64,000 bases of DNA from Nitrospirota bacterium (GTDB lineage: Bacteria; Nitrospirota; Nitrospiria; Nitrospirales; Nitrospiraceae), in the NCBI GenBank assembly GCA_030645475.1, contig JAUSMA010000071.1, positions 124,001-188,000 of the forward strand, in the 5' to 3' direction. Numbering within the stretch: the stretch's first letter is position 1; the number at the start of each line of letters is the position of its first letter. The notes under the pieces are model-generated. The model did not search any database. It was not told where the DNA came from and saw nothing but the letters and a program-made list of their open reading frames with translations. The position numbers and the translations under genes are program-made. This document shows, one piece after another, positions 8,750 to 58,463 of the stretch.

Positions 8750-9113
8750 CCAGCGCCTCTCAATGGTGATTTCCTAAGGGCGACAGAGGATACCTGCTTT
8801 GCCATGGTCACGCAAGGAACCCCAATTCTGGCTATGGAGAACAGGGCGAGAAGGGCGGGACGCGGGACAGGTCTCTCTGGTTGCGGGACAGATCCGCGCA
8901 GCAGATAGATTTCTAGCAGGATACGGAAAAACTCGGTTGACGCATTCCGTATGGTGTCGGTGGCTGAATAGTCTCAGGATGCGCACGAAGGCCGTTCAGC
9001 GAGCGAATACCGACGATTTGAACCATGAACGCGGAACGCTGAATGAACATCATTTCATCGATCATTGCTCACGTTCAGCGTTTCCTAGCGGACTTTTCCA
9101 GCATCTTGTGAGG
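8750..9113. other. 364-bp gene-free stretch with nested inverted repeats
   Basis: No convincing gene. It holds (a) GGGACAG-type short repeats around 8860-8890; (b) an ATACGGAA...TTCCGTAT inverted pair near 8920-8952 beginning AGCAGGATACGG, resembling a partial repeat end; and (c) the degenerate structured repeat at 8975-9108. Confidence 0.5.
8975..9108. repeat. Degenerate copy of the CAGGATGC structured repeat
   Basis: Left end CAGGATGCGCACGAAGGCC then GTTCAGCGAG matches the left end of better copies (CAGGATGCTCAAAAAGGC, then GTTCAGCAAG). The right end GCGGACTTTTCCAGCATC matches GCGGACTTTTTCAGCATC. The centre differs from the other copies, yet still forms its own inverted pair (GGAACGCTGAA with TTCAGCGTTTCC). 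Confidence 0.6.
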
Positions 9114-11556: not shown

Positions 11557-11589
11557 CAGAAGCACACGATCCGCCGATGAGGTGAGACT

Positions 11590-11804
11590 AGCAGGCTGCG
11601 GGAAAACTATTGCGGCACGATAGAAATGAACAGGTCCGGCGTCTGGGGAATGGGAGAATACCAGACAGGATAGCCGAGCGAGACACGCGAGACTGGCGGG
11701 AAAGGTGAGACACTCGGAATCAGGGCTTGCTCGTCGCGCCTGTCGCGCTAGGCGTACCCGTCGCGCGCTTGAGAGCGCTGGCGGGCTTTTTCAGCATCCG
11801 GCTA
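11590..11804. repeat. Diverged CAGGATGC-type repeat between prcA and pafA
   Basis: The right end GCTGGCGGGCTTTTTCAGCA then TCCGG is a clear family end. The left end (GCAGGCTGCGGGAAAAC) is weak, and an internal ACTGGCGGGAAAGG suggests two nested or partly deleted copies. The outer edge GGCTA supplies the TAG stop codon of prcA (complement of 11802-11804). The only frame starting here, MLKKPASALK..., is 25 codons of repeat and not a gene. Confidence 0.5.
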
Positions 11805-12488
11805 AATAGAGAGGAGGGGTTTGGTATCGGCAGGCGACAACCGTCGAAACCGTCGGCCCTCGCGGGTGCGGTCGAGGACTGCGACTTCCAGCGATTCCAG
11901 CGAGAGCTTCTGGCTTCCAATCTGCTCAAGTGAAGCAATACAGAGCGACAGGGCCTCTCGTAGCTCAGGCGGTTGTGTAAGACCTTTCTCCTTTAACAGA
12001 GCCTGCACGGCCTCCGACTTGCCTCCGATGACCGCAAAGGTCCGCTCATCGATGATGCTCCCGTCGAAGGAAATGCGGTACATCTCGTTCGCATGGCCGT
12101 TATGCCCGACCTGCACCACCAGGATTTCCACCTCTAAAGGCTTCTGCTCCTGGCTGAAAATGGTGCCCAGGCTTTGCGAGTAGCCATTTGCCAGAGAGCG
12201 GGCCGTCACATCTTCACGGCTGTACATGAATCCCTTGAGGTCGGCATGTCTGATACCGGCTTTCCTGAGATTTTCAAACTCACTGTACTTCCCGGCCCCC
12301 GCAAAGGCGATGCTGTCGTAGATCTCGGAGATTTTATAGAGCGAGGCGCTGGGATTCTCCGCGACGAGAAGAATGCCATTCACATATTCGATGGCAATGA
12401 TGGAACGGCCTTTGGCGATGCCTTTCTTGGCATACTCCGCCTTGTCCTGCATCATCTGCTCGGGCGAGACGTAATAGGGCATCGGCAT
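11802..12488 (-). CDS. prcA: 20S proteasome alpha subunit
   Basis: Alpha-ring subunit of the bacterial 20S core. 228 residues, starting MPMPYYVSPEQMMQDKAEYA, which matches the actinobacterial PrcA N-terminus (YISPEQAMRERSELARKGIA). The conserved KGRSIIAIEYVNGILLVAEN and YDSIAFAGAGKYSEFENLR blocks follow. GGAGAA eight bases before the ATG supports the start, one codon after the end of prcB. The stop codon is contributed by the edge of a repeat element. The C-terminus beyond about residue 210 is basic and probably disordered. Confidence 0.95.
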   Translation of the reverse strand: MPMPYYVSPEQMMQDKAEYAKKGIAKGRSIIAIEYVNGILLVAENPSASLYKISEIYDSIAFAGAGKYSEFENLRKAGIRHADLKGFMYSREDVTARSLANGYSQSLGTIFSQEQKPLEVEILVVQVGHNGHANEMYRISFDGSIIDERTFAVIGGKSEAVQALLKEKGLTQPPELREALSLCIASLEQIGSQKLSLESLEVAVLDRTREGRRFRRLSPADTKPLLSI

Positions 12489-17429: not shown

Positions 17430-17600
17430 CAGGATACTCAAAACGGCTGTCCAGCAAGGCCGCAGGCGATCGACCGTTCATTTAGGGGTGGATGGGATGA
17501 TCCCAACTGCGCGCGTCCAACGAGGGTCTTCTGAGACCGCGCGTTGCGCGAGCAAAGGGATCGTCCCAGCCACCCCGCTCCCTTTTTCAGCATCCTGCTA
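17430..17600. repeat. CAGGATGC structured repeat with a variant core
   Basis: Left end CAGGATACTCAAAACGGCTG then TCCAGCAAGGCCGCAGG; right end CTTTTTCAGCATCCTGCTA. The centre differs from the 120-bp copies: GGGGTGGATGGGATGATCCC and GGGATCGTCCCAGCCACCCC form a long inner stem around a loop of about 50 bp, itself containing a CGCGCG pair. The outer edge TA-G at 17598-17600 forms the thiG stop codon. Confidence 0.8.
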
Positions 17601-30891: not shown

Positions 30892-30902
30892 CAACTCTGG
30901 TC

Positions 30903-31025
30903 GGCTGCTGAAAAAGCCCGCCAGCTTCGTTCTCGCCTCGAAAGCATCCTCAACGTAGCCAGAGGCTACGCCTCCGGTGCTTTCATCGGCTGCGGCCTTG
31001 CTGGACGGTCTTTTTGAGCAGCCTG
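30903..31025. repeat. CAGGATGC structured repeat, inverted orientation
   Basis: Near full-length copy read in the opposite sense to the others. Ends GGCTGCTGAAAAAGCC and GGTCTTTTTGAGCAGCC replace GGATGC/GCATCC with GGCTGC/GCAGCC, a paired change that keeps the terminal stem. Central hairpin GTAGCC-AGA-GGCTAC; flanking stem GAAAGCA/TGCTTTC. Confidence 0.88.
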
Positions 31026-50019: not shown

Positions 50020-50145
50020 CAGGATGCTCAAACAGGTCGTCCAGCAAGGCCGCAACCGATGGAAGCCCCGGAGGCGTACCTTCAGAGGTACGTTGAGGAT
50101 GCGTTCGAGGCGAGAACGAAGCTGGCGGCCTGTTTCAGCATCCTG
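50020..50145. repeat. CAGGATGC structured repeat
   Basis: Full 126-bp copy. Ends CAGGATGCTCAAACAGG and CCTGTTTCAGCATCCTG: AAACAGG pairs with CCTGTTT where other copies have AAAAAGG/CTTTTT. Central hairpin GTACCT-TCAG-AGGTAC differs from GTAGCC-TCT-GGCTAC of other copies but still pairs. It lies between the lipoprotein gene and yqgE. Confidence 0.9.
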
Positions 50146-50154
50146 CTAGTTCCG

Positions 50155-50715
50155 CTAGTTCAGGGAAGGATCGAAAGGCATATCCGCATAGTGACGGTAA
50201 TCGTCACCCAGGGCACTCACAATATCGGGCCAGATACGGGTGGGATCCTTGTCGAACACGGCATTGGGATCAGCCGGAATGGTAAACCAGGAACCGGTCT
50301 GCATTTCAGACTCCAATTGCCCTGGGCCCCAGCCGGAATACCCGAGGTAGGCGCGGAATGCATCGTGCCCTCCGCTATTGGTCAAAATACGATCGACCAG
50401 GTCCGTATCCCCGCCGAGACAGATTCCATCGAACACATGATGGGAGTTCTCAGGCAATTGATCCAATCGATAGAGCATCATGACCTGATTCGTTTGCACC
50501 GGCCCTCCGGAGAAGAGGACGTGCCGTTGGCCTTCGAGAATCGGCACTTGAGGTAACGCTTCCGAGACCGACATCGCTGTTGGACGATTGACGACGACAC
50601 CCAACGCACCCTCGGCCCCATGCTCGCAAAGCAACACAACGGTCTGCCGAAAGTTCGGATCGCGCAAGGAGGGCGCGGCAATGAGGAAGATGCCTTTTCC
50701 CAGTGGAGCTTTCAT
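50155..50715 (-). CDS. yqgE: YqgE/AlgH family protein (UPF0301)
   Basis: 186 residues from the ATG at 50715 (MKAPLGKGIFLIAAPSLRDPNF). Conserved: FRQTVVLLCEHGAEGALGVVVNRP, LFSGGPVQ, GYSGWGPGQLESEMQTGSWF. UPF0301 proteins have a mixed alpha/beta fold of unclear role (AlgH affects alginate regulation in Pseudomonas). Confidence 0.94.
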   Translation of the reverse strand: MKAPLGKGIFLIAAPSLRDPNFRQTVVLLCEHGAEGALGVVVNRPTAMSVSEALPQVPILEGQRHVLFSGGPVQTNQVMMLYRLDQLPENSHHVFDGICLGGDTDLVDRILTNSGGHDAFRAYLGYSGWGPGQLESEMQTGSWFTIPADPNAVFDKDPTRIWPDIVSALGDDYRHYADMPFDPSLN

Positions 50716-50787: not shown

Positions 50788-50862
50788 CAGGATGCTCAAA
50801 CAGGCCGTTCAGCAAGGCCGCAGGCGAGTCAAAACCGGAGGCGTACCCTCTCGGGTACGTTA
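50788..50862. repeat. Half copy of the CAGGATGC structured repeat
   Basis: 75 bp: left end CAGGATGCTCAAACAGGCCG through the central hairpin GTACCC-TCTC-GGGTAC, then breaks off at ACGTTA, which is the TAA stop codon (complement of 50860-50862) of the nitrilase gene. The right half is missing. Confidence 0.8.
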
Positions 50863-55327: not shown

Positions 55328-55449
55328 CAGGACGCTCAAAATGGCTGCTCAGCAAGGCCGCAACGAGCGAAATGCCGAGGCGTACTACTCAGTACGTTGA
55401 GGCATTGAGCGACGCGAGAACGAAGCTGGCAGACTTTTTCAGCGTCCTG
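55328..55449. repeat. CAGGATGC structured repeat with compensated ends
   Basis: 122 bp. Ends CAGGACGCTCAAAATGG and ACTTTTTCAGCGTCCTG: GGACGC pairs with GCGTCC where other copies have GGATGC/GCATCC, a double change that keeps the stem. Central hairpin GTACT-ACTC-AGTAC; outer stem ATGCC/GGCAT. Confidence 0.9.
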
Positions 55450-56262: not shown

Positions 56263-56486
56263 GAAGTCTCCCGTTACGCCTGGCGCATCATACCGAGAAT
56301 GCGATCACGAGGGAAGATTCCCCTGCTCTCAGGCGAGAGAAAATTTATCCAGCCACGGAGGCGAGAATGGTATGATCCTGGCCTGGCAAGCTCGCATATA
56401 AGACTGACCAGACTGCGGGAAATCTCAGCTTTTTTCGCGATGCCCTGTTGCGAAATTATGCAGGGGAATAGTGCCAGAAGAATCAG

Positions 56487-56610
56487 CAGGATGCTCAAAA
56501 AGGCTGTCCCGCAAGGCCGCAGGCGATTCGAAACCGGAGGCGTAGCCTCTGGCTACGTTGAGGATTTCGATGAGCCGAGAACGATGCTGGCGGACTTTTT
56601 CAGCATCCTG
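56487..56610. repeat. CAGGATGC structured repeat, best-preserved copy
   Basis: 124 bp: CAGGATGCTCAAAAAGGCTG...ACTTTTTCAGCATCCTG with near-perfect end pairing, outer stem CGAAACC/GGATTTCG, and central hairpin GTAGCC-TCT-GGCTAC. Lies 30 bp before the M3 peptidase start. Confidence 0.92.
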
Positions 56611-56639: not shown

Positions 56640-58463
56640 ATGCCTGTGAAGATGAACCGAAAGACTGCCAAACCCCGTAAGACCTCCCCTCTAAAAAAAC
56701 AGAGCCGCGCCCATTCCGAGCGCTGGGATCTCTCACACTTGGCAAAGGAGCCGGTCAAGAAATTCGATACCCTGTTGGCAGAGATCGAGGCCAAGGTCGC
56801 ACAATTCGAAGCGGCTCGGACCCAACTCAACCCGACCATGGCCACCTCCATCTTCCATCCACTCTTGACGCTGAGCGAAGAGATCGCGGCTGCCTCGTCC
56901 CGGCTCAGCGCCTATGCCTATCTCTGGTTTTCCGAAAATACGAAAGATCTCGCCGCTCGTTCGTTTAAGACCAAAGTCGAAGAACAGCTCACCGCACTCC
57001 AAAACCGACTGGTGTTCTTCGACCTCTGGTGGCAGAGCGTCGATGAGGAGAATGCGAGCCGGCTCATGACCGGAATCGGCTCGCTCCGGTATCACCTCGA
57101 AACCATTCGCCGGTTTCAGCCCCATACGCTGTCCGAACCGGAAGAGAAGATCGTCAACATCAAGAACATCACAGGCCGCAGCGCCGTGCATTCACTTTAC
57201 GATGTCGTGACGAACGCCTTCACCTTCACGCTCACCGTCAACGGCAAGCGGAAAACAATGACGCGCGAGGAACTGACGGCTTATCTCCGCCATGCGCAAG
57301 GCCGGCTACGTGAGGCCGCCTACCGGGAGCTGTACCGCGTCTATGCCGATCAGCACGATCTCCTGGGTGAAATCTACAAAGCGTTGGTCAACGACTGGAA
57401 AGCGGAGAATCTGCAGCTCCGCCGATTCGCCTCGCCGATTGCCACCCGCAATCTTGGCAACGACATTCCCGATGCAGCCGTGGCGTCGCTCCTGAAAGTC
57501 TGTCAAAAAAATGCGGGTATCTTTCAGTGCTACTTCCGTATTAAGGCTCGCCTCTGCAAGATCACACCGATGAGCCGTTATCACATCTATGCCCCACATC
57601 GTACAGAACAAAAATCCTATCGCTATCAGGATGCCATCAAGATGGTGCTAGATGCGTACCGGGGATTCTCACCGCAATTAGCCGACTTGGCGGAGCGAGT
57701 GGTGCAGGAGCGCCATATCGATGCACGGGCGAGGCCCGGGAAAATCGGCGGCGCCTATTGTTACAGCGTCGTCCCGGGCATGACCCCCTATGTGCTGCTC
57801 AACTTCACCGGCGAGGCGCGCGATATCGCGACAATGGCCCATGAGCTCGGCCATGCCGTCCACGGCATGCTGGCGCAACATCATTCCATGTTTACCTTCC
57901 ATTCCACCCTCCCCCTGGCGGAAACCGCCTCGGTATTTGGAGAGCGCATCCTATCCGATGCCCTCATGACCCAGGAACGGGACAAGAGGGTGCGGCAGGG
58001 ACTCCTACTCAACCAACTGGACGACATCTATGCCACGGTCCTCCGGCAGGCCTATTTCGTTCAATTTGAAAATCAGGCCCATGACATGATCGCCCAGGGC
58101 GCGACCGTGAAGGATCTGGCCAAGACCTATCTGGCCGAAGTGCGGCAGCAGTTTGGGAAGGGAATTAAGGTCCCGGATGAGTTCCAATGGGAATGGCTGA
58201 CCATTCCCCACATCTTTGCCAGCCCCTTTTATTGTTACGCATACAGCTTCGGCAACTTGCTCGTGCTCGCCCTCTATCGGATGTATCAAAAAGAGGGAGC
58301 CACATTTGTCCCCAAATATCTCGAGCTGTTGAGCACGGGCGGATCGGAATCGCCGCAGGCCATCCTGTCCAAAGTCGGCGTCGATATGTCGTCTGAAGAA
58401 TTTTGGCAATCGGGGTTCGACACGATCCGCGAGATGGTCGATCAGCTGGAGCAGACGCTCTAA
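56640..58463 (+). CDS. M3 family oligoendopeptidase (PepF-like)
   Basis: 607-residue cytoplasmic zinc oligopeptidase. HExxH at about residues 400-404 (TMAHELGHAVHG), distal Glu in LPLAETASVFGERIL, and the PepF-like GGAYCYSVVPGMTPYVLLNFTGEARDIATMAHELGH core. AAGGAGATACGACC precedes the ATG. Clears small peptides. Confidence 0.93.
   Translation: MPVKMNRKTAKPRKTSPLKKQSRAHSERWDLSHLAKEPVKKFDTLLAEIEAKVAQFEAARTQLNPTMATSIFHPLLTLSEEIAAASSRLSAYAYLWFSENTKDLAARSFKTKVEEQLTALQNRLVFFDLWWQSVDEENASRLMTGIGSLRYHLETIRRFQPHTLSEPEEKIVNIKNITGRSAVHSLYDVVTNAFTFTLTVNGKRKTMTREELTAYLRHAQGRLREAAYRELYRVYADQHDLLGEIYKALVNDWKAENLQLRRFASPIATRNLGNDIPDAAVASLLKVCQKNAGIFQCYFRIKARLCKITPMSRYHIYAPHRTEQKSYRYQDAIKMVLDAYRGFSPQLADLAERVVQERHIDARARPGKIGGAYCYSVVPGMTPYVLLNFTGEARDIATMAHELGHAVHGMLAQHHSMFTFHSTLPLAETASVFGERILSDALMTQERDKRVRQGLLLNQLDDIYATVLRQAYFVQFENQAHDMIAQGATVKDLAKTYLAEVRQQFGKGIKVPDEFQWEWLTIPHIFASPFYCYAYSFGNLLVLALYRMYQKEGATFVPKYLELLSTGGSESPQAILSKVGVDMSSEEFWQSGFDTIREMVDQLEQTL

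Follow-up and report, generated by a model that had tools for sequence, protein, structure and literature searches.

The window analysed here is a 64-kb stretch of a Nitrospira genome (contig C71, positions 124001-188000; the draft assembly has 71 contigs and measures 3.75 Mb). It contains several copies of an intergenic hairpin repeat, the reference copy of which lies directly upstream of a peptidase gene, together with units that carry similar ends. These features are listed below in window coordinates.

56487..56610, + strand: hairpin of the 125-nt class, reference copy, situated in the 5' leader of 56640-58463, an M3-peptidase gene
56409..56424, + strand: degenerate left terminal repeat of the 56487 unit, CAGACTGCGGGAAATC, matching an IS5-type end at 13/16 positions, 78 nt left of the hairpin
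56425..56486, + strand: spacer of the 56487 unit, from the left terminal repeat to the hairpin
56595..56610, + strand: right terminal repeat of the 56487 unit, CTTTTTCAGCATCCTG, which doubles as the 3' arm of the hairpin
30903..31025, - strand: full hairpin copy, shared with the relatives G009 and G012
50020..50145, + strand: full hairpin copy that ends on the right close to the stop codon of 50155-50715, an AlgH-like gene
50788..50861, + strand: half copy (element positions 1-74); the site holds a full copy in the relative G009
55328..55449, + strand: full but diverged hairpin copy, an allele also found in G002, G001, G047, G043 and G018
17430..17597, + strand: variant unit with the terminal arms of the hairpin family and an unrelated palindromic interior
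8975..9108, + strand: variant unit with the terminal arms of the hairpin family and a different palindromic interior
11588..11805, + strand: variant unit composed of CTAG, the left terminal repeat CAGGCTGCGGGAAAAC (11592-11607), another interior, the right arm and CTAA

BLAST recovered five real copies where the original prediction had placed them, four full and one half, and the other window copies are 77-88% identical to the 56487 copy (E 1e-17 to 1e-29). The loci at 8975, 11590 and 17430, which had been taken for diverged copies, are indeed related through their terminal arms, but their different interiors speak against simple divergence, and the one at 11590 is not a diverged hairpin but the left-end module of a unit with its right arm ending near 11799. 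The proposed length of about 120 bp is likewise correct for the hairpin and too short for the whole unit, of which the hairpin forms the right-hand 125 nt.

A covariance model built from 46 copies gives at least 149 matches in the source genome (E<=0.001), at least 150 in the relative G012 and 51 in the complete relative G278. The repeat is present in all 24 same-genus genomes checked and in 110 of 296 Nitrospirota genomes sampled, fading outside the family Nitrospiraceae. In a pattern scan of GTDB, the titles of the matching records read Nitrospira, Nitrospiraceae, Nitrospirales or Nitrospirae/Nitrospirota, with the single exception of an "uncultured Nitrosospira" contig, which may be mislabelled. 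The plasmid and phage records searched contained no match to the repeat, and Rfam returned no covariance-model match for the hairpin at gathering or relaxed thresholds. Head-to-tail tandem copies with almost no spacer are found in the genus of N. moscoviensis (G278:C1:4251454-4251700, with further pairs in G102, G154 and G137).

The complete unit is approximately 205 nt long and consists of YTAR, the left end CAGGCTGCGGAAAAAC, a spacer of about 60 nt, the hairpin ending in CTTTTTCAGCATCCTG, and a second YTAR; its consensus measures 208 nt with YTAR at both ends. Of the 52 units detected, 48 have the left terminal repeat at a distance of 75-78 nt to the hairpin. This repeat is recognisable in a minority of copies: 67 of 268 match it at 11/16 positions or more (4 in a control stretch), as do 13 of the 35 hairpins at 95% consensus or above. 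Identical target 4-mers exceed shuffles only in the YTAR-selected set (15/45, p 0.001) and not in the unselected sets (11/52, p 0.11; 2/23); the target duplications are mostly decayed, and weak outside the YTAR-selected set. One spacer between tandem genes is empty in G001, G018, G047 and others, is occupied by a unit flanked by CTAA/CTAA in G042 and G007, and holds a unit flanked by CTAA/CTAT in G023. The idea that CTAG moves with the element was discarded, because CTAG conservation hardly rises with hairpin identity, so that the tetranucleotide looks like target. An integron attC site was also rejected, the termini CAGGATGC and GCATCCTG being devoid, by eye, of the GTTRRRY and RYYYAAC core sites.

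The ends of the unit have counterparts in insertion sequences of the family Nitrospiraceae. A search for DUF772 transposases there yielded autonomous IS elements of 1314-1318 bp in G278, G008, G134, G102 and G165, which carry the terminal repeat CAGGCTGCGGAAAAAC, differing by one base at one end of the G134 element, and are flanked by CTAG or TTAG. The left end of the unit is identical to those of the IS elements at L320, L322 and L333-L335 over 16-19 nt and its right terminal repeat agrees with the IS end at 13/16 positions, with no similarity between unit and IS past the terminal 16-19 nt. The transposase of G008, a genome of the same genus, scores as IS5 family (267 bits with NF033581, for which the cut-off is 140; PF05598/PF01609), and an 86% identical one is encoded in G015; YTAR is the target rule of the IS5 group, as known from ISfinder. 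No IS5-type transposase was found in the source draft assembly, even in a search with DDE_Tnp_1. A DDE transposase with matching ends exists in related Nitrospira and not in the source assembly. Draft assemblies often lose IS elements, and a MITE may outlive its helper, a transposase in the same genome not being a defining feature. An autonomous element was also sought by pairing terminal repeats within the sequence analysed, where nine pairs spaced 0.7-2.3 kb apart were examined, the longest ORFs of which read as no recognisable transposase; these pairs are probably neighbouring copies. Two further IS groups in relatives (L315, L316, L332; and L338, L340, L341, L343) have related ends, CAGTCTGCTGAAAAA and CAGGCTGTTGACAAAC, and mostly YTAR-like flanks.

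With genes called by an in-house ORF caller based on codon usage, all 76 copies with gene context are intergenic, in agreement with the earlier statement that the repeat always lies between genes; 15 of them occupy divergent spacers. In 59 of 116 copies, CTA, TTA or TCA stands in the flank directly at the right end. Half of the copies touch a stop codon because the target is YTAR, TAG and TAA being forms of TAR, and the YTAR preference is seen also at those divergent sites that lack a stop codon. The copies are oriented with replication, the direction of which was taken from the GC skew of sampled stretches: the minus strand reads in leading-strand direction in 64 of 81 copies (79%; p 1.4e-7), while 66% of genes are leading in the same analysis. 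Copies remain biased at sites whose gene direction is neutral or contrary (9/10 divergent, 5/5 tandem-plus and 10/16 convergent sites), and in G278 orientation agrees with GC skew in 40 of 51 copies. Gomez et al. (2014), as cited in PMC4549789, are said to have described replication-linked orientation of transposons.

Source genome and G012 share 46 candidate hairpins, 36 of them well flanked. The identity of these orthologous hairpins is 91.9%, compared with 92.1% for the right flank, which is mostly coding, and 83.6% for the left 76 nt, whereas the orthologous spacers of other species contain unrelated palindromes or nothing; conserved orthologs and differing spacers together indicate that many copies are old and that sites turn over. 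At L095-L120, the orthologous spacers hold other palindrome families ("GGGGTGGATGAGATGATCC...", a heptad-like "GTGATGAGTGATGGGTGAAG..." and "GGTTGATCTGGTTTG..."), which differ by species, and several spacer palindrome families, including the type at 17430-17597 in the window, bear the terminal arms of the hairpin family. At one convergent site, the stop codons overlap in the small genomes G001, G016 and G020 (1.7-2.6 Mb), so that no spacer exists, and larger genomes have palindromes there.

Judged from sequence comparison, the repeat is likely to be the right-hand hairpin of an IS5-type MITE, about 205 nt long when complete and inserted in trans at YTAR. This reading draws on the fixed architecture, the match to IS5 ends and target, the high copy number, the absence from genes, the occupied and empty alleles of one site and the replication-linked orientation. 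An IS5-family transposase acting in trans would have inserted the unit at YTAR sites, most copies would have lost a recognisable left end through decay, and well-folded copies may have been favoured during spread. The earlier suggestion of a MITE mobilised in trans gains support and becomes specific, with IS5-type ends and a YTAR target.

The stems of the hairpin covary, as had been noticed in the window. Single-copy RNA folds lie 5.0-8.6 SD below dinucleotide shuffles. Across 46 copies, pairing is intact in 97.6% of base-pair cells and 21 of 41 base pairs show changes on both sides; no shuffle out of 500 reaches this level of pairing, and slid registers also remain far below it. Covariation was assessed by an in-house, R-scape-like procedure, in which Fitch-placed substitutions on a FastTree tree are redistributed over columns and scored by an APC-corrected G statistic. 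Among 115 copies, seven of 7,381 column pairs were significant against this tree-based null (E<0.05), and all seven are predicted stem base pairs. Positions 10/116 form a conserved C·C mismatch, and next to the central stem two tandem G·U pairs are likewise conserved. Some copies (L016:1547-1738 and L021:413-604) have a central hairpin whose loop contains a shared insert of roughly 70 nt, GGGCGCACGGTGCGACGAATAAGGAGCACCA..., with similar inserts in G012 and G008, and others (L018:965-1134, L023:780-945 and relatives) have a nested palindrome, CTTCTCACCCGCCCAACCCCGGCGCGCCGAGACGCGCC, in the left arm.

Selection for a folded form had been deduced from the covariation itself. The covariation is real, but the deduction does not follow from it alone, since conversion or palindrome correction could mimic it; what supplies the argument is an asymmetry between the strands. 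With the subfamily-variable part set aside, 37 stem pairs remain, in which tree-based counting gives 270 substitutions that turn a Watson-Crick pair into G·U and 132 that turn it into A·C (p 5e-12), and the orthologs of source genome and G012 give 48 against 24 (p 0.006), where several of the p-values treat related copies as independent. The G·U excess is found in 25 pairs, with the opposite trend in 10. C>T changes amount to 8.96 per C site and G>A changes to 4.24 per G site in paired columns, whereas unpaired columns give the same rate for both (12.80 and 12.82), so mutation bias does not explain the C>T excess of the stems. Since a G·U pair on one strand corresponds to A·C on its complement, the fold that is kept is that of the + strand as written, which is also more stable than that of the - strand in 69 of 76 copies. 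A cruciform, double-stranded binding of the terminal repeats or arm-to-arm correction alone should be symmetric and should not give this bias. The substitution pattern makes it seem that the + strand fold has been selected, either as RNA or as single-stranded DNA, and because the bias is present whichever strand the neighbouring genes read, selection may act during the spread of copies or on an independent RNA. An extension of the MITE reading, to be taken as tentative, is that the hairpin could be a recognised single-stranded + strand module (RNA or ssDNA) spread by a DDE-type miniature transposon, with selection acting on the module, beyond the transposon ends.

It is unlikely that the hairpin is instead a host-functional RNA or terminator-like structure at gene ends, vertically kept and made uniform through gene conversion, with the transposon ends as incidental history. 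The hairpins shared with G012, at least 36 in number and conserved like the flanking coding DNA, would suit such an RNA, as would the strand-specific constraint visible in the wobble bias and the many copies directly behind a stop codon. Close species, however, differ at the same spacer, the copies in divergent spacers do not fit, the U-tract is not preserved as U, its changes being matched by the opposite arm, and no terminator-like site was scored at 56487, where neither an intrinsic terminator nor a sigma-70 promoter was found. The hairpin may nevertheless have an RNA role, and it shares covarying stems and strand-specific wobble with structured RNA elements.

Quite improbable is the proposal that the covariation is a by-product of template-switch palindrome correction and inter-copy conversion, without selection on the fold. 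Double changes are as often of the transversion type (75) as of the transition type (74) and hence not funnelled through G·U, and 18 of 19 compensated ortholog pairs lie in hairpins of less than 93% identity that look replaced; taken together, these observations indicate that inter-copy conversion probably contributes to the covariation, and the second speaks against in-situ compensatory evolution as its sole source. Moreover, in the G012 ortholog of the copy at 30901-31025, a G-to-C substitution together with one additional A has made the usual C·C mismatch complementary, resulting in perfect pairing as expected of palindrome-templated correction. A process acting on the duplex or on both arms should, however, be symmetric, whereas the excess of G·U over A·C is strand-specific and absent in unpaired columns, and the C·C mismatch at 10/116 otherwise stays conserved.

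Also among the options first considered, and very improbable, is a REP- or BIME-like repeat whose mobiliser would be a Y1 (RAYT) transposase working by way of single-stranded DNA. In its favour, a stop codon is often provided by the tetranucleotide at the foot of the hairpin, a trait reported for GTAG REPs (PMC3733652), and orientation is linked to replication. Against it, PF01797 is absent from the source genome and from 11 of 24 other same-genus genomes searched, including G001, which is 99% complete and has 211 first-look candidates, the Y1 gene is scattered among relatives without association with the repeat (a copy at 1 of 15 RAYT loci, no more than copy density predicts), there is no GTAG-tagged unit of 20-40 nt, and the flanking 4-mer resembles a duplicated YTAR target, shared with a DDE transposase.

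Nitrospira are major nitrite oxidisers and include comammox bacteria, and among their non-coding sequences the repeat family is very abundant; it is now tied to a testable transposase. The contrast between G·U and A·C splits the covariation of such a repeat into transposon history and strand-specific structural selection, and the occupied and empty sites are natural material to measure effects of the hairpin on gene ends. If the reading as a recognised module were true, portable and strand-specific structural sites would number in the hundreds in the genus and follow replication in their orientation.

No description of this repeat family was found in the open-licence papers searched. The RepRanger palindrome survey gives thousands of predicted palindromes for N. 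moscoviensis in a row of counts, which describes no family, unit, ends or mobiliser (PMC12306157), and these palindromes probably include arms of the hairpin family. REP, REPIN and BIME sequences with RAYT lie beside Y1 genes as units of some 20-65 nt that bear a GT[AG]G tag (PMC3733652, PMC6006769, PMC3116915). They resemble the Nitrospira repeat as intergenic palindromes with a tag able to supply a stop codon and an implicated folded single strand, but the latter is a unit of about 205 nt bounded by YTAR on either side, with a 125-nt hairpin and no Y1 link.

The closest likeness in ends and target is to IS elements and MITEs of the IS5 family: the left terminal repeat is identical to that of Nitrospira IS5 elements, the target is the 4-bp YTAR, and the unit is short, non-coding and present in many copies. 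In contrast to IS5 MITEs, it consists mostly of a conserved 125-nt hairpin under strand-specific constraint, its right end matches at 13/16 positions, and the draft genome showed no such transposase. ERIC (IRU) sequences of enterobacteria are imperfect palindromes of about 125 nt, intergenic, present in many copies throughout their host group and without a transposase of their own. As so described, they agree with the Nitrospira repeat in all these respects, but differ from it in host phylum, terminal sequence and the YTAR target, and the Nitrospira repeat has a matching IS in relatives.
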